IMG/VR virus record: IMGVR_UViG_3300046171_000234
Location: 1-40,610 of that record
Strand: one strand, 5' to 3'
Length of the DNA stretch: 40,610 bases
Source: a virus
Each line of letters starts with the position of its first letter. Within the stretch, counting starts at the first letter, position 1. A model generated the notes under the pieces. That model saw only the letters and a program-made list of their open reading frames with translations. It searched no databases and had not been told where the DNA came from. Positions 2,519-40,610 of the stretch are shown here, piece by piece. Both the position numbers and the translations under genes were made by a program.

Positions 2519-2601
2519 TGAGCGATGCTAAAATAGTATTAATTTATTTTATAGTTTTTGGAACTATCGGCAAACTAGCAGAGGTATATTTAGGAGCATG
2601 A
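2518..2601 (+). CDS. 27-residue membrane peptide between curlin 1 and CsgF
   Basis: The gene begins in a TAATG junction with curlin 1 and ends in an ATGA junction with CsgF, so both borders suggest translational coupling. The product is almost entirely one membrane helix (IVLIYFIVFGTIGKLAEVYL). It may be a small subunit of the export apparatus, or mainly a coupling cistron that keeps ribosomes on the message. It is too short for family recognition. Confidence 0.5.
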   Translation: MSDAKIVLIYFIVFGTIGKLAEVYLGA

Positions 2602-3110
2602 AAGAAGACGATTTTGGAAGTGGCATGGGAACTGCAATCAAATGGATAGTCTTAGCCGCACTTATCGGCTTTGGATTAAACCAGTTACTATTTGCAGATG
2701 AAATGGTACATAAATTTAAAAGCCCTTCGTTCAATGGACAAGGTGTTTCCGCACACTATCTAACTATAGAAAATCAGGAAACAAGTAGAAAGGATGATGC
2801 TAAAGCAGCCGCGCAAGCAGCACTTGATGATTTAGAAAGAGATGCACAGAATACAACTCTTGCTAGATTTATGAAAAACTTAGAATCAAGAATTTACTCA
2901 CAACTTAGTAGAGACTTGGTAGACAATCTATTCGCAGATGGAATAGGAACAGAGGCAGCAGGTGTCATAGAACTAGAAGGAAATATAATAGAATATAGCA
3001 GCGACGGAGTGACAGTTACACTCAAAGTTACAGACGAGGAAGGGAATGTTACAGAAATCATTATACCAATCGGTAGTTTCGGCGATTTTAGTCTCGACTC
3101 TGACGGCTAG
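2598..3110 (+). CDS. csgF: CsgF-like curli assembly protein, 170 aa
   Basis: In known curli systems CsgF binds the CsgG pore and links it to the fibre at the cell surface. Here a hydrophobic signal segment (about residues 14-31, IKWIVLAALIGFGLNQLLFA) precedes a mature part that matches the CsgF layout. First comes a KFKSPSFNGQG block like the FRNPNFGGNP pore-binding block of E. coli CsgF. A helical region with LESRIYSQLSRDLVDNLF follows, then strands ending VTLKVTDEEGNVTEIIIP, which resemble its LNVTDRKTGQTSTIQV. The N-terminus before the hydrophobic segment is longer than usual (13 residues). The last 65 nt overlap the signal sequence of CsgG in another frame. Confidence 0.87.
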   Translation: MKEDDFGSGMGTAIKWIVLAALIGFGLNQLLFADEMVHKFKSPSFNGQGVSAHYLTIENQETSRKDDAKAAAQAALDDLERDAQNTTLARFMKNLESRIYSQLSRDLVDNLFADGIGTEAAGVIELEGNIIEYSSDGVTVTLKVTDEEGNVTEIIIPIGSFGDFSLDSDG

Positions 3111-3906
3111 CTGTATGCTGACTCCTGGAAAGGATGTCAGAGATTTTATAAATAATAACAGACATACTACTGTTGAAAAAGGTGCTGTAATTAGTACTTT
3201 ACATAATGCTGAACTTACAAATATTAAGAGAGTAAGTAATCCTGCACCTGTTGTAGCGATATACAGCTTTCCAGACTTAACAGGTCAAAGAAAGAGTAAT
3301 AGTACTTTTGCATTGTTTAGTACAGCAGTAACAATGGATCCTGCAAGTTTATTACTAAGAGCAGTAAAACACGCAGGAGAAGGAAAGTTCTTTAAAGTTG
3401 TCGAAAGAGCTGGGTTAGATCATCTTACAAAAGAAAGACAACTAATTCGTTCTACTAGAAATAGTTTGGATGAAAAAGAACCTGTATTACCATTATTGTT
3501 TGCAGGTTTAATATTTACTGGTGGTGTTATTGGATATGACACCAATTTAAAAACAGGAGGTATCGGAGCAAGATATTTAGGTATTGGGGCACAGAAACAA
3601 TATCGTGAAGATACCGTATCTATTTCAATAAGAGTTGTATCTGTTAGTAGCGGAGAGGTTCTTATGGAAACACTTGTTACAAAGACCATTCTCTCGGTCG
3701 GAGTATCACAGGATGTGTTTAGATTTATAGAACTCGGAACTGAACTAGTTGAAGTTGAGAATGGAGTGACGAAGAACGAAAGCGTAACTATCGCACTTCA
3801 AAAAGCTTTAGAGACTGGAGTTTTAGAAATAATCTACGAAGGAGAGAAAAGAGGGTACTGGGAAACAGTACTAATAGGGGAAGAAAATGAAATTAGTGGG
3901 AGCTAA
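3046..3906 (+). CDS. csgG: CsgG-like outer-membrane curli secretion pore, 286 aa
   Basis: CsgG forms the nonameric outer-membrane lipoprotein channel that exports curli subunits. The N-terminus is a signal peptide ending in a relaxed lipobox, LTASC, with Cys23 as the probable lipidated residue. The family core is easy to follow: FFKVVERAGLDHLTKER, then GVIGYDTNLKTGGIGARYLG, then SISIRVVSVSSGEVL, then the segment that contributes to the barrel (KTILSVGVSQDVFRFIE), then ESVTIALQKALETGVLEIIYEG and RGYWE. These match E. coli CsgG block by block and the length is normal (277 in E. coli). The start at 3046 lies inside csgF and is needed for the signal peptide; the next Met would remove it. No CsgE plug gene is seen nearby. 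Confidence 0.95.
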   Translation: MLQKSLYQSVVSAILVSTLTASCMLTPGKDVRDFINNNRHTTVEKGAVISTLHNAELTNIKRVSNPAPVVAIYSFPDLTGQRKSNSTFALFSTAVTMDPASLLLRAVKHAGEGKFFKVVERAGLDHLTKERQLIRSTRNSLDEKEPVLPLLFAGLIFTGGVIGYDTNLKTGGIGARYLGIGAQKQYREDTVSISIRVVSVSSGEVLMETLVTKTILSVGVSQDVFRFIELGTELVEVENGVTKNESVTIALQKALETGVLEIIYEGEKRGYWETVLIGEENEISGS

Positions 3907-4642
3907 TCTAATATTAATACTTATGGCAGTATTTACAATCTTTGCAAGCGCAGCTGACAATGAAGTATTTATAACACAGAGTGGTACAAACGCTCAAATA
4001 GAAATCGATCAGATTGGATCAGGAAATGAAGTTGAAGGTAATGAAGCAGCCTCAGGATCAAACCCTGTGAGTGACTTTAAATTAACTGGTAATAGTCAGA
4101 CTATTGATATTGACCAAATTGGGGATAACAACATATTTAGAGGAGATATTGATTCTTCTACTTTCACTGGTAAATTTGTATTTACTGGTAGTACCAATGA
4201 ATTTGATATTCAATATGATGCAGATGGAAGTAATGTTTCTGATAATGGTGAGATGGATGTTACGGTTACAGGTAGTAATTCTGATTTAACAGTTACTGTT
4301 GCAGGCACAGACACCGCAGCAAACTTAGATTATGATGCAGTTATTACTGGTGATTATAATACTTGGATTAATACTATCGACTCTGATAACGTTACCTTCG
4401 AGGTAGATGTTAATGGAGACAACGGAACATTAAACTACGATGCAGACGGATATGCATCTGGTAGTACAGGGCATACTTTTATCTTAGACCAAGATGGAGA
4501 CTATGTTAACTATAATATTGATCAACAGTCAACAAGTGCTGTCGATTACTTAAACTTACAAATGACAACGAGTGGTACAAGTAGTGCAAATGCGAACGTT
4601 TGCGTTTATCAGTCTGATAACGCTACATCTACAAGCTGCTGA
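3887..4642 (+). CDS. Curlin-like secreted protein 2 (CsgA-type), 251 aa
   Basis: A signal peptide (hydrophobic LILILMAVFTIFASA, cleavage near residue 22) is followed by curlin-type repeats at the N-terminus: EVFITQSGTNAQIEIDQIGS and QTIDIDQIGDNN. A longer Asp/Gly/Thr-rich section of repeated strands follows (TVTGSNSDLTVTVAGTDT), and the C-terminus holds a Gln-rich strand (YNIDQQST) and two cysteines. It resembles curlin protein 1 in layout but is not a close copy, so the pair could act as major and minor subunit, as CsgA and CsgB do. The gene starts within the last 20 nt of csgG, and its 3' end overlaps the FecR gene. Confidence 0.8.
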   Translation: MKLVGANLILILMAVFTIFASAADNEVFITQSGTNAQIEIDQIGSGNEVEGNEAASGSNPVSDFKLTGNSQTIDIDQIGDNNIFRGDIDSSTFTGKFVFTGSTNEFDIQYDADGSNVSDNGEMDVTVTGSNSDLTVTVAGTDTAANLDYDAVITGDYNTWINTIDSDNVTFEVDVNGDNGTLNYDADGYASGSTGHTFILDQDGDYVNYNIDQQSTSAVDYLNLQMTTSGTSSANANVCVYQSDNATSTSC

Positions 4643-5675
4643 TATAGGCAGTATTAGCGAATTAAAGGGAGACGCCCAGATCAAAAGATCGGGCGAATCT
4701 CTTACAGCTGAATTAAAACTAGGAGTAGAATCTTATGACGACGTTAGAACTGCTAATAGTCGGGTGGGGCTTACTTTTATTGATGACAGCGTTGTTCGTC
4801 TTACTGAGCATTCGAAGCTTATACTTGACGAAGTTATATTTGATCCAGATCCTTCTAAGTCTAAAATCGGACTCACATTTGCTTCAGGAACTGCAAGATT
4901 TATTACAGGAAAAATAGGTGGAATTAATAAAGAAAATATTAAAATTCAAACTCCGACTTCTCAAATCGGTATTCGAGGAACTGACTTTACTGTTACTGTT
5001 GACGAGTTGGGTCGTAGCTTGGTTATTCTTTTACCTGATATCAATGGGATATCATCTGGCGAGATTACAGTGGAGACCGCAGCGGGACTGGTCATTCTTA
5101 ACAAACCATATGAAAGTACCACCACATCCGTCTGGGAAACCGCCCCAGCAGAACCAGTAACACTTGATATTACATTAGACTTAATTGACAATATGTTGAT
5201 TGTTACACCTCCAGAAGAAGAGGTCTTTGAAGAAGATATTAATAATGTACAAACAGCAGACTTCTTAGACTTTAATGATCTTGATATTGATCTACTCAAC
5301 GAAGATGTATTAGCAGAAGAAGATTTAGAATTTACAGAACTCGATATTAATTTCTTAGATGTTAACTTCTTTGAAGATTTACTAGAAGTTATAGAAGAAC
5401 TCGACAAACTAAGAGAAGGAAACGAAAAGAAAGCACCAGTCGCAGTTGGGAAAACAGAGATCGAGGGAACAATAATTGGACAAGATCCAAACACACAGAT
5501 TATTACTATTGTAGACGCACAAACAGTAAGTGTACAACGACAAGTAAATGACTTTGCAAAAGTTGTTGTAGACTCACAAGCAGGTACAAATATTACTATT
5601 TCACAAGATGGAAAAGAGTACCTTATTACTATTAATAAGGGCGGAACATCTAATATAATTATAAGGCAACAATGA
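4590..5675 (+). CDS. Secreted FecR-domain protein with curlin-like C-terminus
   Basis: The preferred start is ATG 4590, because it opens directly onto a signal peptide, MRTFAFISLITLHLQA; a GTG in frame at 4572 would add six residues. Residues about 20-140 form a FecR domain (GDAQIKRSG, then DVRTANSRVGLTFIDDSVVRL, then GTARFITGKI, then TPTSQIGIRGTDFTV), a periplasmic fold used in signalling or scaffolding. An acidic Leu/Asp/Glu-rich linker (about 205-280) follows. The last 40 residues (SQAGTNITISQDGKEYLITI, then TSNIIIRQ) read like one curlin strand-loop repeat. No sigma factor or FecA-type receptor is nearby; the partner is more likely the cyclase gene, which starts within its last 4 nt. The first 53 nt overlap curlin 2 (71 nt if the GTG is used). 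Confidence 0.82.
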   Translation: MRTFAFISLITLHLQAADIGSISELKGDAQIKRSGESLTAELKLGVESYDDVRTANSRVGLTFIDDSVVRLTEHSKLILDEVIFDPDPSKSKIGLTFASGTARFITGKIGGINKENIKIQTPTSQIGIRGTDFTVTVDELGRSLVILLPDINGISSGEITVETAAGLVILNKPYESTTTSVWETAPAEPVTLDITLDLIDNMLIVTPPEEEVFEEDINNVQTADFLDFNDLDIDLLNEDVLAEEDLEFTELDINFLDVNFFEDLLEVIEELDKLREGNEKKAPVAVGKTEIEGTIIGQDPNTQIITIVDAQTVSVQRQVNDFAKVVVDSQAGTNITISQDGKEYLITINKGGTSNIIIRQQ

Positions 5676-7453
5676 TAAGACTACTTACAGCAACTGGATT
5701 AGTTGCTTTATTTATTTGGAATCCATATCCATTTCAATACTTAGAGTTGAAAGGGTATGATACTCTTATCATGTCTACTGAACCAGTACAAAATGAAAAT
5801 ATACTTATTGTAGATTTGGATGAAGACTTAGTAAAAGCTTACGAAGGATATCCACTACCAAGAAGTTTATATGCGGAACTAATACAAAAAACAAATGCAG
5901 TTCCAGGAATTACAGTCTTAATGCCCGATGCAGATATTCGAGGCAAAGAAAATGACACTTTATTTAGCAGTGCTATGCGTAAAATACCAACAGTATTAGC
6001 ATCTGCAGCTTCGGCACAATCAACCGAGCAAGGCCTACATGTAGGCACAGCCCAATTAGGGGAGGATCCATTACCATGGCTATACGAGTACCAAGGAATT
6101 TTACGTACAGAGTCTATTCTGGAGTTAAGCAGAAAGGGGCTAGGGCTAGTAACCGCTACGCCGGAGATAGACGGGGTTACTCGTCGTATTCCCCTAGTCG
6201 TAAACGTGCAGTCAAAACTTTACCCAGCTTTCGCCTTGGAACTCTTAAGACTCGCAGTAAACGATCCTTCGTACCAGCTAAAAACAACACAAGAAGGTAT
6301 TGATTGGATAAGGGTTCCTAGCTACCCTTTGATGAAAACAGATGCAAACGCTAGAATATTTTTAGATTGGAACACAAAATTCTACAAACAAACAGGATTA
6401 GAGTTTTTAGAGAGTCCAATAGATGCACCTTTTGTTATTTTTGGAGTAACAGCAGAGGGTGTAGTTAACCCAACTCCAACACCAGCAGGTTTAAAGTACC
6501 CACATGAAGTTCAAGCAAATATTTTACATAATCTTATTAATGGTTCTGCTCCTTCTACCCCTAGTTGGGCTCCAGCAGGAGAGTTACTTGGCCTTACACT
6601 CGGCTTATTACTTGTTGCCTTAACAGTTTCATCCATTTACATTAGTGCGCCTGTAATATTTTCACTAATTGGTGGTTCAATGTTCGGCGCCTGGTACTTG
6701 TTTCAATCTTCTTACTTGTTTGACGTCACAGGCCTTATCATAATCTGGTTTTTATTCTGGAGTATTGAAAGTTTCCGTAATTTTATTACGCAGTATTTGC
6801 TGAGATTACAAATTAAACAACAATTCGGGACGTATGTATCTCCAGACCTCGTGAAAAAATTACAGGAGGACCCAACATTGCTGAGATTGGGTGGGGAGAC
6901 GAAACGACTCACTTTTCTTTTTTCAGATATTCGAGGATTCACACCAATTTCTGAAAAATACCAAAAAGACCCGCAAGGTCTTACAAAATTAATCAACCGA
7001 TTTTTGGATAATCAAACAGAAATCATACTAAAACATGGCGGAACCATAGATAAATACATGGGAGACTGTATTATGGCTTTCTGGAACGCACCACTTGACA
7101 TCGATGATCAAGAAAGAAAGGCTACAGAGTGTGTACTCGAGATGCGCGAGGCACTAGGAGAATTAAATGAAAAACTTAAAGAAGAAAATCTTGACCAAAT
7201 TAATACAGGAGCAGGAATTAATACTGGCTTATGCGTCGTTGGTAACTTTGGTAGTAGTAGTCGTTTTGATTACTCTGTCTTAGGAGATGCTGTAAACTTA
7301 GCTGCCCGATTAGAGTCCTCATGTAAAAACTACGATGTCGATCTTGTCATATCTGAGTACAGTTTAGTTGACGGATACGACTACGAGTTCTTAGATGAAG
7401 TAACGGTAAAAGGCAAGTCGGAACCAGTTAAAATATACACCATCAGAAAATAG
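5672..7453 (+). CDS. Membrane adenylate cyclase, class III, with CHASE2 sensor domain, 593 aa
   Basis: It should convert ATP to cyclic AMP and diphosphate at the inner membrane. Order: an N-terminal membrane helix (1-18), an extracytoplasmic CHASE2 sensor (about 20-300, with VDLDEDL, PDADIRG and ATPEIDGVTRRIPL), three membrane helices (about 305-370), and a cytoplasmic cyclase domain (about 405-590). Key residues are present: metal-binding Asp419 (FSDIRGF) and Asp465 (KYMGDCIMAFWN), substrate-selecting Lys461 and Asp539, and the transition-state pair Asn542/Arg546 (NLAAR). The Lys/Asp pair indicates ATP rather than GTP. FecR genes next to CHASE2-cyclase genes are familiar from bacterial chromosomes, so the pair was probably acquired together. 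Around 6061-6240 GC content and codon choice differ from the rest of the gene (see the overlapping frame at 6076). Confidence 0.93.
   Translation: MIRLLTATGLVALFIWNPYPFQYLELKGYDTLIMSTEPVQNENILIVDLDEDLVKAYEGYPLPRSLYAELIQKTNAVPGITVLMPDADIRGKENDTLFSSAMRKIPTVLASAASAQSTEQGLHVGTAQLGEDPLPWLYEYQGILRTESILELSRKGLGLVTATPEIDGVTRRIPLVVNVQSKLYPAFALELLRLAVNDPSYQLKTTQEGIDWIRVPSYPLMKTDANARIFLDWNTKFYKQTGLEFLESPIDAPFVIFGVTAEGVVNPTPTPAGLKYPHEVQANILHNLINGSAPSTPSWAPAGELLGLTLGLLLVALTVSSIYISAPVIFSLIGGSMFGAWYLFQSSYLFDVTGLIIIWFLFWSIESFRNFITQYLLRLQIKQQFGTYVSPDLVKKLQEDPTLLRLGGETKRLTFLFSDIRGFTPISEKYQKDPQGLTKLINRFLDNQTEIILKHGGTIDKYMGDCIMAFWNAPLDIDDQERKATECVLEMREALGELNEKLKEENLDQINTGAGINTGLCVVGNFGSSSRFDYSVLGDAVNLAARLESSCKNYDVDLVISEYSLVDGYDYEFLDEVTVKGKSEPVKIYTIRK
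6076..6303 (+). CDS. Candidate overprinted gene inside the cyclase, 75 aa, very basic
   Basis: In a second frame of the CHASE2 region an ATG lies 10 nt behind AGGGGAGG (6058-6065), one of the strongest Shine-Dalgarno matches seen in the window. The 75-codon frame encodes a protein rich in Arg, Lys, Ser and Tyr (RYAGDRRGYSSYSPSRKRAV) that resembles the small basic proteins at 8.2-10.2 kb. GC rises to about 57% at 6121-6180, against roughly 30-38% nearby. The cyclase frame there uses codons rare elsewhere (GGG, CCC, GTG, GCC), as expected where two frames are constrained. A chance open frame in a locally foreign segment remains possible. Confidence 0.35.
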   Translation: MAIRVPRNFTYRVYSGVKQKGARASNRYAGDRRGYSSYSPSRKRAVKTLPSFRLGTLKTRSKRSFVPAKNNTRRY

Positions 7454-36756: not shown

Positions 36757-39700
36757 ATGGCTACAATACAATTAAAGCGTTCAAATACCGCTGGTGCAAA
36801 TCCTACTACTTCCAACCTTGCGTTGGGAGAAATGGGTATCAATACTAAAGACGGAAAGTTTTTCTTAAGAAAACACGTTGATGGTAATACGAGTGGTGAC
36901 TCAATACTAACATATGCTCCACAGGGCATTAATGCCTTTGGAACACAAACTTACGAAGTAAAGGTTGTTACTAAAACTGCCGCTCACCCTCAAAATGGTA
37001 CTGGTAGTTCTAGTGGTTATACTATTGATGGTTTAGAAAGTCCTTTCTTACTCCTTATTCCTGGAAACACATATAAATTTGATCAAGCAGATTCAAGTAA
37101 TAGTTCACATCCTCTACGATTTTATTTAGAAGCAGATAAAACAACTGCTTATACAACGGGCGTTACAACAAATGGTACTCCGGGTTCTTCTGGAGCATAC
37201 ACACAGATTGCTGTCAGCACATCTACTCCTCAAGTTTTATACTATCAATGTTCATCACATGGTTACATGGGTTCAGCCGCTTACTCTGTTTCAGACGCAA
37301 TAGCAGATGGCAAAGTAGACAGCGATCAAATAGCAACAAATGCTGTAACTTCAGCAAAGATTGCTCAAAACTCAATTCTTACAAAACACATTGATGATAA
37401 CCAAGTAACAGCAGATCAAATAGCAGACGCTACAGTTACTACAACTCAGATTGCTGCAAATACTATTGCAACAGGAAACATTGCAGATAATGCAGTAGAT
37501 GGTACTAAGATTGCACAAAATAGTATTCTTACTAGACATATAGACGATAATCAAGTCACAGCAGATCAAATAGCTGATGCAACAATTACAACAACACAAA
37601 TAGCAGCAAACACTATTGCTACAGCAAATGTTGCAGACAACGCTATTGACGGAACAAAAATAGCATCAAATAGTATTCTTACTCGACACATTGATGATAA
37701 CCAAATTGGTATAGACCAGTTAAATGTATCAGATGGTTCTAGTGGACAAGCACTTACAACTGATGGTAGTGGAACATTATCTTTTTCTACTATTTCAGGT
37801 GGTGGTAGTGCTTCAGATAGTTTTAAAACTATTGCTATCTCAGGACAGAGTAGTGTAGTTGCAGACTCTTCTACAGACACATTAACACTCGTAGGTGGAA
37901 CAGGAATTACACTTACAACTAATGCTAGTACTGATACTATTACAATTACAGGAACAACAGGAATATCAGCAAATGCTGTAACCGCAACACATATAGCAAC
38001 TGGAGCAGTTGGAGCGAGTGAACTCGCAGCTACTGCAGTAACAGCCGGTGCTTATACAAATGCCGACATAACAGTCGATGCAGATGGTCGTATAACATCA
38101 GCTTCAAACGGTACAGCAACTGTAGCAGATGGGGCAATAACAACAGCTAAACTAGCAGACGATGCAGTCAGTGCAGCAAAACTTGCAGATACAGCAGTAA
38201 CAGCGGGAACATATGGTTCTACAACTGTTTCACCACAAATTACAGTAGATGCACAAGGAAGAATAACAAATGTATCAAATCAGACAATCTCTGGTGGAGG
38301 TGGATCTGGTGGTATTGGTTTAAATCAAACTGTTGCTGTTTATGAAGGCTCTGGAGACGGCTCAACAACAGCTTTTAATACTGGAACAACAATAACAAAT
38401 GAAAATCTAACTTGGGTGTTTATAGATGGTGTTTATCAAGAAAAAGGAGCTTATTCAACATCTGGCTCAACAGTAACATTTAGTGCTGCACCACCAAACG
38501 GAACAAGTGTAGAAGTAAATAATCTAGCAAACTTAACAACAGGCGGAGCATTTAATCATAACTCGTATAATGGAGATGGCTCTACAACAGCATTTACACT
38601 TTCAAAAGCACCAGGATCAGACACAGACTTAATTGTATTTATAGATGGTGTATACCAAAACGCTGATGCATTTAATGTAAGCAGCACAACTCTTACATTT
38701 GATACTGCACCAGCAAACGGAACAAAGGTTATAGCATACACAATTGGTGGTGTTGTAATGGGTAAAGCTTCAACAGTTGACACATTTAATGGTAATGCTT
38801 CTACAACAGCATTTACATTATCGCTAGATCCTGTAAAAGAAGAAAATACGCAAGTATATGTTGGCGGTGTATATCAGCCAAAAGGAACATATGCTGTAAG
38901 TGGTACAACACTTACTTTCTCAGAAGCTCCACCAAGTGGAACAGGTAATATTGAAGTAGTTATAAATCAAATTACAACTCTTACTGACGTAGGAGCAAAT
39001 GCAGTAACAGCTACTTCCATTGCAGCAAATGCAGTTGGCTCTGCAGAGATCGCTGCAAACTCAGTAGATTCAAGTGAGTTAGTCACTGGTTCTATTGATA
39101 CAATACATATTGGAGATGACCAAGTAACAAATGCAAAACTTGCAGTAAACTCAGTATCCGCAGTAGAACTTGCAGGAAATTCAGTAACAAGTACACAGAT
39201 AGCACAGAATCAAGTAGGAGTATCAGAATTAAATGTATCTGATGGTTCTAGCGGACAAGCACTAACAACAAATGGTAGCGGAACTTTAAGTTTTGCTACA
39301 ATAGCAAGCCCAACATTTAAAACTTTTGGTACAAACTCCATAATGATTGGAGACAATGATACAGGCACGATTAATGCAGCAGATAGTAATACTGGATTAG
39401 GTATAGATATTTTTGCAGCTTTAACAGAAGGTGATGGTAATGTTGCTATAGGTAAAAGTGCTTTAGCAGCAAATACTACAGGTGATTATAATATTGCAAT
39501 TGGTCTAAATACTTTAGATGCGAATACAACAGGTACTCAAAACACTGCTTTAGGTTTAAGTAGTTTAGGTTCTAATACAACAGGTAGTTTTAATGCTGCT
39601 CTTGGGGTTGGTGCTTTGGGTGCAAATACTACTGCAAGTTCTAATACTGCAATCGGTCATACTGCTTTAACAGCAAATACCACAGGGTATGACAATACAG

Positions 39701-40610
39701 CGGTTGGTTCAGGTGCATTAGAAAGTAATACAACTGCAATTAATAATAGTGCTTTTGGTAAAAATGCTTTAAAAGTAAACACAACTGGTACTAATAATAC
39801 TGCATTAGGTTATGCTACTTTAGATGCTAGTACGACAGGTGATGGAAATACAGCAGTTGGTAATCTTGCTTTAAGTGCTAATACTACTGCAGACAATAAC
39901 ACCGCAGTTGGCTATAAAGCTCTTTATGTAAACACCACAGGTACAGCAAACTCAGCTTTTGGATATTTAGCTTTAGATGCAAATACAACAGGTTATTCTA
40001 ACAGTGCGTTTGGTGGTGAGCATACAAGTAATACTTCGGCAGCATTGTCTGCAAATACAACAGGTTCTAGTAATGTTGCTTTTGGTACAGGAGCCTTAGC
40101 CAATAACACAACAGCTTCTAACAATACCGCAGTTGGTACTTATGCACTGTACTACAACACCACAGGAACTCCAAACGTGGCTGTAGGTAAAAATGCTTTA
40201 CGAGCAAATACTACAGGTTATAACAACGCAGCAGTTGGTTATGATGCTATGACGGATAACACCACAGGGCATTCAAATGCAGTATTAGGAACAAGTGCAT
40301 TAGCAAATAACACTACAGGTGAAAATAATACAACAGTTGGTCATGGTGCTATGTTTGATAATACTACAGGTGCTAAGAATACTGCATTCGGATATCTTGC
40401 TTTAGGTGACAATACTACAGCAAATAACAATACAGCAGTTGGTTATGACGCTATGCGATTAAACACAACAGGCGCTGATAATACTTCTGTAGGGTACAAG
40501 TCTTTAGATGCTAATACTACAGGTGCAAGCAATACTTCTGTTGGTAAATCTGCTATGGGCGCTGCTACTGAGGGTGATAATAACACAGGGATAGGAGCAG
40601 GAGCTTTAGG
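36757..40610 (+). CDS. Giant tail fibre protein, at least 1284 aa, cut by the window edge
   Basis: The frame is open from ATG 36757 to the edge. N-terminus: TIQLKRSNTAGANPTTSNLA, like the preceding fibre. Residues about 66-178 form a cupredoxin-like domain with His118, Cys165, His168 and Met171 in the places of a type 1 copper site. Then come 50-residue repeats (about 195-310), a Thr/Ala-rich shaft, three modules with FIDGVYQ or VGGVYQ (about 525-735), a second shaft (745-850), and from about 890 a long run of 17-residue repeats (NTTG..NTA.G..AL.A) like the head repeats of trimeric autotransporter adhesins. The C-terminus lies outside the window. It is probably the main distal fibre that contacts the host. 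Confidence 0.85.
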   Translation, partial: MATIQLKRSNTAGANPTTSNLALGEMGINTKDGKFFLRKHVDGNTSGDSILTYAPQGINAFGTQTYEVKVVTKTAAHPQNGTGSSSGYTIDGLESPFLLLIPGNTYKFDQADSSNSSHPLRFYLEADKTTAYTTGVTTNGTPGSSGAYTQIAVSTSTPQVLYYQCSSHGYMGSAAYSVSDAIADGKVDSDQIATNAVTSAKIAQNSILTKHIDDNQVTADQIADATVTTTQIAANTIATGNIADNAVDGTKIAQNSILTRHIDDNQVTADQIADATITTTQIAANTIATANVADNAIDGTKIASNSILTRHIDDNQIGIDQLNVSDGSSGQALTTDGSGTLSFSTISGGGSASDSFKTIAISGQSSVVADSSTDTLTLVGGTGITLTTNASTDTITITGTTGISANAVTATHIATGAVGASELAATAVTAGAYTNADITVDADGRITSASNGTATVADGAITTAKLADDAVSAAKLADTAVTAGTYGSTTVSPQITVDAQGRITNVSNQTISGGGGSGGIGLNQTVAVYEGSGDGSTTAFNTGTTITNENLTWVFIDGVYQEKGAYSTSGSTVTFSAAPPNGTSVEVNNLANLTTGGAFNHNSYNGDGSTTAFTLSKAPGSDTDLIVFIDGVYQNADAFNVSSTTLTFDTAPANGTKVIAYTIGGVVMGKASTVDTFNGNASTTAFTLSLDPVKEENTQVYVGGVYQPKGTYAVSGTTLTFSEAPPSGTGNIEVVINQITTLTDVGANAVTATSIAANAVGSAEIAANSVDSSELVTGSIDTIHIGDDQVTNAKLAVNSVSAVELAGNSVTSTQIAQNQVGVSELNVSDGSSGQALTTNGSGTLSFATIASPTFKTFGTNSIMIGDNDTGTINAADSNTGLGIDIFAALTEGDGNVAIGKSALAANTTGDYNIAIGLNTLDANTTGTQNTALGLSSLGSNTTGSFNAALGVGALGANTTASSNTAIGHTALTANTTGYDNTAVGSGALESNTTAINNSAFGKNALKVNTTGTNNTALGYATLDASTTGDGNTAVGNLALSANTTADNNTAVGYKALYVNTTGTANSAFGYLALDANTTGYSNSAFGGEHTSNTSAALSANTTGSSNVAFGTGALANNTTASNNTAVGTYALYYNTTGTPNVAVGKNALRANTTGYNNAAVGYDAMTDNTTGHSNAVLGTSALANNTTGENNTTVGHGAMFDNTTGAKNTAFGYLALGDNTTANNNTAVGYDAMRLNTTGADNTSVGYKSLDANTTGASNTSVGKSAMGAATEGDNNTGIGAGAL
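37340..37690 (+). repeat. 150-nt tandem repeats in the giant fibre gene
   Basis: About two and a half units of 50 codons: KIAQNSILT.HIDDNQVTAD, then QIADAT.TTTQIAANTIAT and IADNA.DG. The units are very similar at protein level and clearly similar at DNA level. They form a repeated shaft segment behind the cupredoxin-like domain. Confidence 0.75.
38340..38960 (+). repeat. Three tandem FIDGVYQ modules in the giant fibre gene
   Basis: Units of about 210 nt, each with GDGSTTAF or GNASTTAF, a VFIDGVYQ or VYVGGVYQ strand, a (T/V)(L/V)TF(S/D) strand and a P.(S/N)GT turn. Such modules are common in marine phage fibres and probably form small beta-domains along the shaft. Confidence 0.75.
39430..40610 (+). 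repeat. Long run of 51-nt (17-residue) adhesin-head-like repeats
   Basis: About 23 consecutive copies of the pattern NTTG..NTA.G..AL.A continue to the window edge, for example NTTGYDNTAVGSGALES. The regular spacing of Asn, Thr, Gly and small hydrophobics suits a left-handed beta-roll trimer, as in the head of YadA-type adhesins, though with a longer period than the usual 14-15 residues. The array is incomplete at the right edge. Confidence 0.8.

Follow-up and report, generated by a model that had tools for sequence, protein, structure and literature searches.

A cupredoxin-type domain with a conserved set of predicted type 1 copper ligands in the tail fibres of marine phages

The window analysed here is the whole 40,610-base stretch of the IMG/VR virus record IMGVR_UViG_3300046171_000234, in which gene scans identified terminase, portal, prohead protease, capsid, tape measure, and J-type genes. 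The last gene of interest lies 3' of the tape measure and J-type genes and is identified as a phage tail fibre gene by homology and by its place in the tail module (Table 1); the PHROG models that match it are tail fibre or virion structural proteins (phrog_30742, phrog_892, and others). At its probable virion-attachment end, Pfam Mtd_N matches residues 4-30 under the cut-off (E 0.11) and phrog_1699, a long tail fibre distal subunit family, matches residues 3-33. Elsewhere in the window, curli secretion genes (2598-3906) are carried between the small and large terminase genes and include CsgF (PF10614, E 1.1e-14) and a CsgG-like gene (partial match to NF011731, E 5.1e-45); a search of 50,697 phage records found CsgG relatives in 7, including Methylophilales and Pelagibacter phages. 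At 4572-7453, a FecR-domain protein and, after it, a protein combining CHASE2 with an adenylate/guanylate cyclase form a signalling pair unusual for a phage, and both proteins match phage families without an assigned function.

Table 1. The tail fibre gene, its parts, and the predicted ligand residues, in window coordinates.
Feature	Position	Strand	Basis or remarks
Tail fibre gene	36757-40608	+	1284 codons, open at contig end; PHROG matches phrog_23837, phrog_4636, phrog_30742
Residues 1-60, probable virion-attachment end	36757-36936	+	Weak Mtd_N; phrog_1699
Predicted cupredoxin-fold domain, residues 63-178	36943-37290	+	Homology extent, AlphaFold2, PDB matches, hhalign
His77, conserved fifth histidine	36985-36987	+	Outside the four-ligand set
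His118, predicted copper ligand 1	37108-37110	+	SSHPLRFY
Cys165, predicted copper ligand 2	37249-37251	+	Last residue of predicted strand
His168, predicted copper ligand 3	37258-37260	+	QCSSHGYM
Met171, predicted axial ligand	37267-37269	+	QCSSHGYM
Repetitive linker, residues 185-330	37309-37746	+	Translation
DUF4183 (PF13799), residues 534-585	38356-38511	+	E 4e-09, above cut-off; best of three stretches
Distal NTTG-type repeats, residues 968-1284	39658-40608	+	Cut by contig end; phrog_23837, phrog_4636, phrog_6002

An earlier note on this DNA had proposed a cupredoxin-like domain at 36950-37290, an extent near-identical to that found here (approximately residues 63-178), and a check of the translation places His118, Cys165, His168, and Met171 at the fibre positions it had given. 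The four residues follow the type 1 ligand order of His, Cys, His, and axial Met, with the last three in one loop. In a cupredoxin fold, the His-Cys-His-Met set is the ligand set of blue copper proteins, and because the window's domain carries that set in a predicted fold of this kind, it probably binds copper of the type 1 kind. Counted against this reading is the Pro that follows His118; in plastocyanin, Asn is usual after the first His ligand. Type 1 sites also accept other metals in vitro, and Cys165 is the sole cysteine among the 1284 residues of the fibre, which would favour either another metal (zinc or iron) at the site or inter-chain bonds formed by Cys165 in the fibre trimer. We regard this alternative as very improbable; a disulphide role needs none of His118, His168, and Met171, and the pattern of ligand loss described below also counts against it.

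The structure of the domain was predicted with AlphaFold2 from 95 sequences, giving a nearly all-beta model (pLDDT 94.2, pTM 0.88; model residue n is fibre residue n+58) in which strand 160-165 ends with Cys165, the loop leading to strand 174-177 contains both His168 and Met171, and strand 120-123 begins two residues after His118. Cupredoxin topology has the same placement of Cys, His, Met, and first His on strands and loops. All 50 of the 50 matches listed from a Foldseek comparison with the PDB are cupredoxin-fold proteins, with rusticyanin first (best E 7.7e-04) and with two-domain laccases, nitrite reductases, bilirubin oxidase, factor VIII, and purple cupredoxin among them; these matches have moderate E-values, with 3 of 1305 reaching E <= 0.001, and a TM of about 0.5. 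The top VIA-align match is the copper nitrite reductase 2dv6 (Z 9.2, rmsd 2.8, 101 aligned residues), and 26 of 997 chains reach Z >= 8. The cupredoxin-like domain of the earlier note is thus recovered by the model, Foldseek, and VIA-align alike, as a predicted and not a solved structure, and residues ~63-178 are a predicted cupredoxin-type domain.

Another Foldseek match, 2vmj, is a nitrite reductase into which the loop CTPHPFM was engineered; this loop, that of amicyanin, has spacing identical to CSSHGYM. Amicyanin itself was not found among the Foldseek matches listed. The window domain resembles amicyanin in its short Cys-x2-His-x2-Met ligand loop. Amicyanin is the partner of methylamine dehydrogenase, however, and this redox-partner role has no counterpart in the window. 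In the viral structure library BFVD, 69 matches fall at E <= 0.001, the third being the P-SSM2 fibre-like protein; small beta-sandwich proteins of giant viruses are also among them, and such proteins from Pithovirus and Marseillevirus metagenome genomes (A0A481Z6J5, A0A481YY19, and others) resemble the model at E 3e-08 to 9e-08. A solved structure of a cyanophage protein with the domain was sought without success: the P-SCSP2 protein, which has the domain, gave no PDB matches up to E 1, and in the cryo-EM structure of P-SCSP1u, as described in PMC10575957, the distal parts of the fibre are unresolved.

The sequence relationship to cellular cupredoxins is distant. The window domain gave no match up to E 1 to Pfam cupredoxin families, neither it nor any other part of the window record reached the cut-off of PF00127 (Copper-bind), and a PDB search with the single domain sequence gave no match up to E 10. 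A profile search of the PDB placed pseudoazurin first (E 0.038) and a type 1 multicopper oxidase second (E 0.12), both weakly, and the Pfam At5g54830-like domain matches 7 of 29 members (best E 0.0028). Profile-profile alignment with hhalign to eight Copper-bind domains, cellular or phage-borne and taken from genomes that also hold relatives of the fibre domain, gave a probability of 97.4 and E 1.3e-11, with His118, Cys165, and His168 falling on the invariant His, Cys, and His. Its score was 65.59 versus at most 21.84 in 199 of 200 column shuffles, the one other shuffle (131.96) being an 8-column artefact. The probability against plastocyanins alone was 6.87, which counts against direct closeness, and the cupredoxin link therefore rests on bridging cellular proteins.

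One such bridging protein, L322 (1-1752), comes from Bacteroidetes, contains leucine-rich repeats, and ends in a Copper-bind domain (E 1.6e-06, above the cut-off) that also has the short Cys-x2-His-x2-Met loop. Another bridge, L195 (4639-6243), starts like the T4 gp10 baseplate protein and has the fibre-type domain at its C-terminal end, where Pfam Copper-bind scores E 0.0041 (17.9 bits vs the 21.2 cut-off) and the plastocyanin 1b3i scores E 0.032; its contig is filed as a Rickettsiales MAG. The domain thus appears to be a true cupredoxin-fold domain, distantly homologous to plastocyanin/azurin-type proteins. With the PF00127 plastocyanin/azurin family it shares a beta-sandwich, the order His...Cys-x2-His...Met, and the hhalign relationship to marine bacterial proteins, but it goes unrecognised by Pfam, carries an extra N-terminal segment that includes His77, and belongs to a fibre. 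Plastocyanin, amicyanin, and azurin are soluble electron carriers, whereas the window domain is one segment of a fibre of at least 1284 residues.

The His-Cys-His-Met set is intact in 358 of 371 unique related domains (469 loci), three of the others being cut off and ten departing from it. Duplicates and hits shorter than 60 residues were dropped before counts were made on the 172-domain profile set, the 95 rows of the first DNA-pattern scan, and the 371-domain set; L302, L405, and L228, in which the end of the frame cuts the domain, were set aside to leave 368 testable domains, and the Met of L431 was scored as kept. An initial homology scan (80 loci) retained 71 of 84 hits after duplicates, hits of fewer than 60 residues, and spans below about 80 query residues were dropped, and all 71 unique domains have the four ligands and His77. 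A profile search found the full set in 171 of 172 unique domains; the C-x2-H-x2-M register is likewise fixed in 171 of 172, and the spacing from His118 to Cys165 varies from 41 to 67 residues. His77 is kept in 79 of 79 non-gapped rows of alignment A2 and in 152 of 157 non-gapped rows of the profile set, and is missing from a shorter, distant class of domains.

Since some earlier probe peptides held ligands, ascertainment was checked with probes lacking any ligand. The ligand set is present in 134 of 134 rows holding the ligand-free motif Y[KR]FDQ[AS]D[SN] and in 33 of 34 rows without a ligand-bearing probe. A DNA-pattern scan on the same motif found the ligand set in 90 of 95 rows, the other five, as judged from the printed lists, being two that are cut off and three with ligands lost (L287, L215, L218). 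The scan on a second ligand-free motif found the set in 151 of 156 rows; by the same lists, three of the remaining rows are cut off, one has lost the loop, and one has His changed to Asp and Met to Leu. A third DNA-pattern scan returned 48 loci; when the threshold of the 371-domain set was applied, the domain was detected in none of them. A chance or misread motif is ruled out by this conservation together with the ligand-free controls.

An alternative to copper binding is a domain that has no metal in the virion: the fold would be cupredoxin-like, and the four residues would persist because they serve packing or hydrogen bonding or because the module spread recently. Several observations argue against it. 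In alignment A2 (95 of the 172 unique rows, selected by clustering at 85% and by a length rule, with the ligand-less representative L137 left out), mean column identity is 50% and the four ligands are among only five invariant columns. Synonymous codons are mixed at the ligands (His118, CAC 123 and CAT 141; Cys165, TGC 75 and TGT 186; His168, CAT 157 and CAC 103), so residue identity is held by selection and not by recent descent. By these measures, the four predicted ligand residues are under strict selection.

Ligand losses also come in sets. Each of the ten departures among the 368 testable domains is without at least two ligands, and single-ligand losses number 0 versus about 28 expected under independent loss, a rough figure, as a replaced loop removes three ligands at once and related rows are not independent. 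Cys is kept in only two of the ten (L215 and L429) and is mostly lost with other ligands, contrary to a separate role of Cys165 in inter-chain bonding. In L429 (5081-5806, minus strand), Asp stands for His118 and Leu for Met171 while Cys and His are retained, making it a natural two-ligand variant. In favour of a metal-free domain, the ten departing homologs still look complete, and His118 is kept with the other ligands gone in five of them (L206, L287, L427, L340, and L337, which include the isolates S-CREM1 and S-WAM1). In these five His118 survives without the loop; the loop ligands thus behave like one block, and His118 may serve a further purpose. Weighing both sides, we consider a metal-free domain unlikely. 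Of the earlier note's reading, the cupredoxin-like domain and its complete ligand set are borne out by the predicted fold, by the homology to Copper-bind proteins, and by the strict selection.

The earlier note expected marine phages to have domains of this kind in their structural proteins, and this was confirmed, with copies on tail fibre, virion structural, and baseplate proteins. A search of 50,697 phage records with one distant query picked out 74; each belongs to a phage of Synechococcus, Prochlorococcus, Pelagibacter, or Methylophilales or derives from a marine or unassigned sample. The carrier proteins are annotated as tail fibre, virion structural protein, baseplate wedge gp7, or hypothetical. 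The domain has the full ligand set in 14 of 16 isolate phage loci, the isolates being hand-picked for diversity from lists of 54 and 74 records and not a random sample; gp7 of P-HM2 has a second, degenerate copy. The family phrog_30742 contains the domain (its match covers fibre residues 62-182, E 3.5e-50) and is annotated only as "tail fiber protein", with no metal annotation. The domain is common to 356 loci versus 41 for fibre residues 1-60 and 28 for residues 185-300, so the domain travels alone. A Bacteroidetes contig of 1.06 Mb encodes a protein, at least 3855 residues long, in which the domain occurs together with Ig-like repeats; the domain is thus not purely viral. As far as these sequences indicate, it is shuffled as a module among the fibres and baseplates of marine phages and has distant relatives in cells. 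The Ig-like accessory domains of phage structural proteins are mobile beta-sandwich decorations; the fibre domain is likewise mobile but differs by its conserved metal ligand set.

The type 1 ligand set is the redox-tuned kind, and its complete presence in marine phages, on tail fibre as well as baseplate proteins, would suit copper that is bound for interaction, either redox-active or presented to the host surface in adsorption. Metal in fibres has already been proposed for iron, in the Ferrojan Horse hypothesis, which concerns HxH iron sites of T4 gp37 and of tail fibres in marine phages (PMC11705849) and of which such copper would be the counterpart. The two cases share metal ligands in marine phage tail fibres; the iron is described as sitting on paired His-x-His of the fibre trimer, whereas the window has one predicted Cys-His-His-Met site in a single-chain domain. 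The HxH motif is absent from fibre residues 1-1284, where no two of the histidines (40, 77, 118, 168, 211, 261, 311, 412, 601, 784, 968, 1089, 1172, and 1196) lie two residues apart. Against a role in interaction, no redox partner or copper gene was found among the window genes scanned, and the position of the module within its protein is variable, baseplate gp7 included, which fits a generic module over a receptor tip; we therefore judge binding for interaction improbable. That phages have working blue-copper sites on their particles and use copper in infection, with a fibre competent only when copper-loaded or exchanging copper or electrons with the host surface, is doubtful.

The reading we prefer is a rigid, copper-pinned accessory module. 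Marine phages would insert the domain as a mobile accessory module into fibres and baseplate proteins, and it would be made in the host as an apoprotein that then takes up copper from the lysate or seawater. The copper would tie the C-terminal loop to the His118 strand and leave the tied module rigid on the outside of the virion. Taken as a whole, from cupredoxin module and intact type 1 site to copper uptake and rigidity on the virion, this account seems to us reasonably likely on the sequences and the model, with stabilisation as the benefit its least certain part. A sensing or electron-transfer role lacks support.

Searches of open-licence PMC papers found none on cupredoxin, phage, and virion structural protein together, none on phage fibres, judged by title, for cupredoxin and virion, and, for cupredoxin and cyanophage, only unrelated work on Borgs. 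No earlier description of a fibre cupredoxin domain was thus found in these papers, the nearest idea being iron in fibres, as set out in PMC11705849.

In the fibre domain, a fold and a site that are both already known turn up in a new setting: a fold known for electron transfer appears as a reusable part of virus particles, with a ligand set under apparent strict selection across Prochlorococcus, Synechococcus, Pelagibacter, and Methylophilales phages. Even without an assigned function, an abundant unannotated domain gets a name. If copper is bound, it would be one more of the trace metals possibly borne by phage particles in the ocean, would offer a coloured spectroscopic handle on fibres, and would raise the question of whether copper affects adsorption. 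Should copper prove to be used in infection, phages would form a pool that binds copper in the sea, and their adsorption would be under the control of copper.
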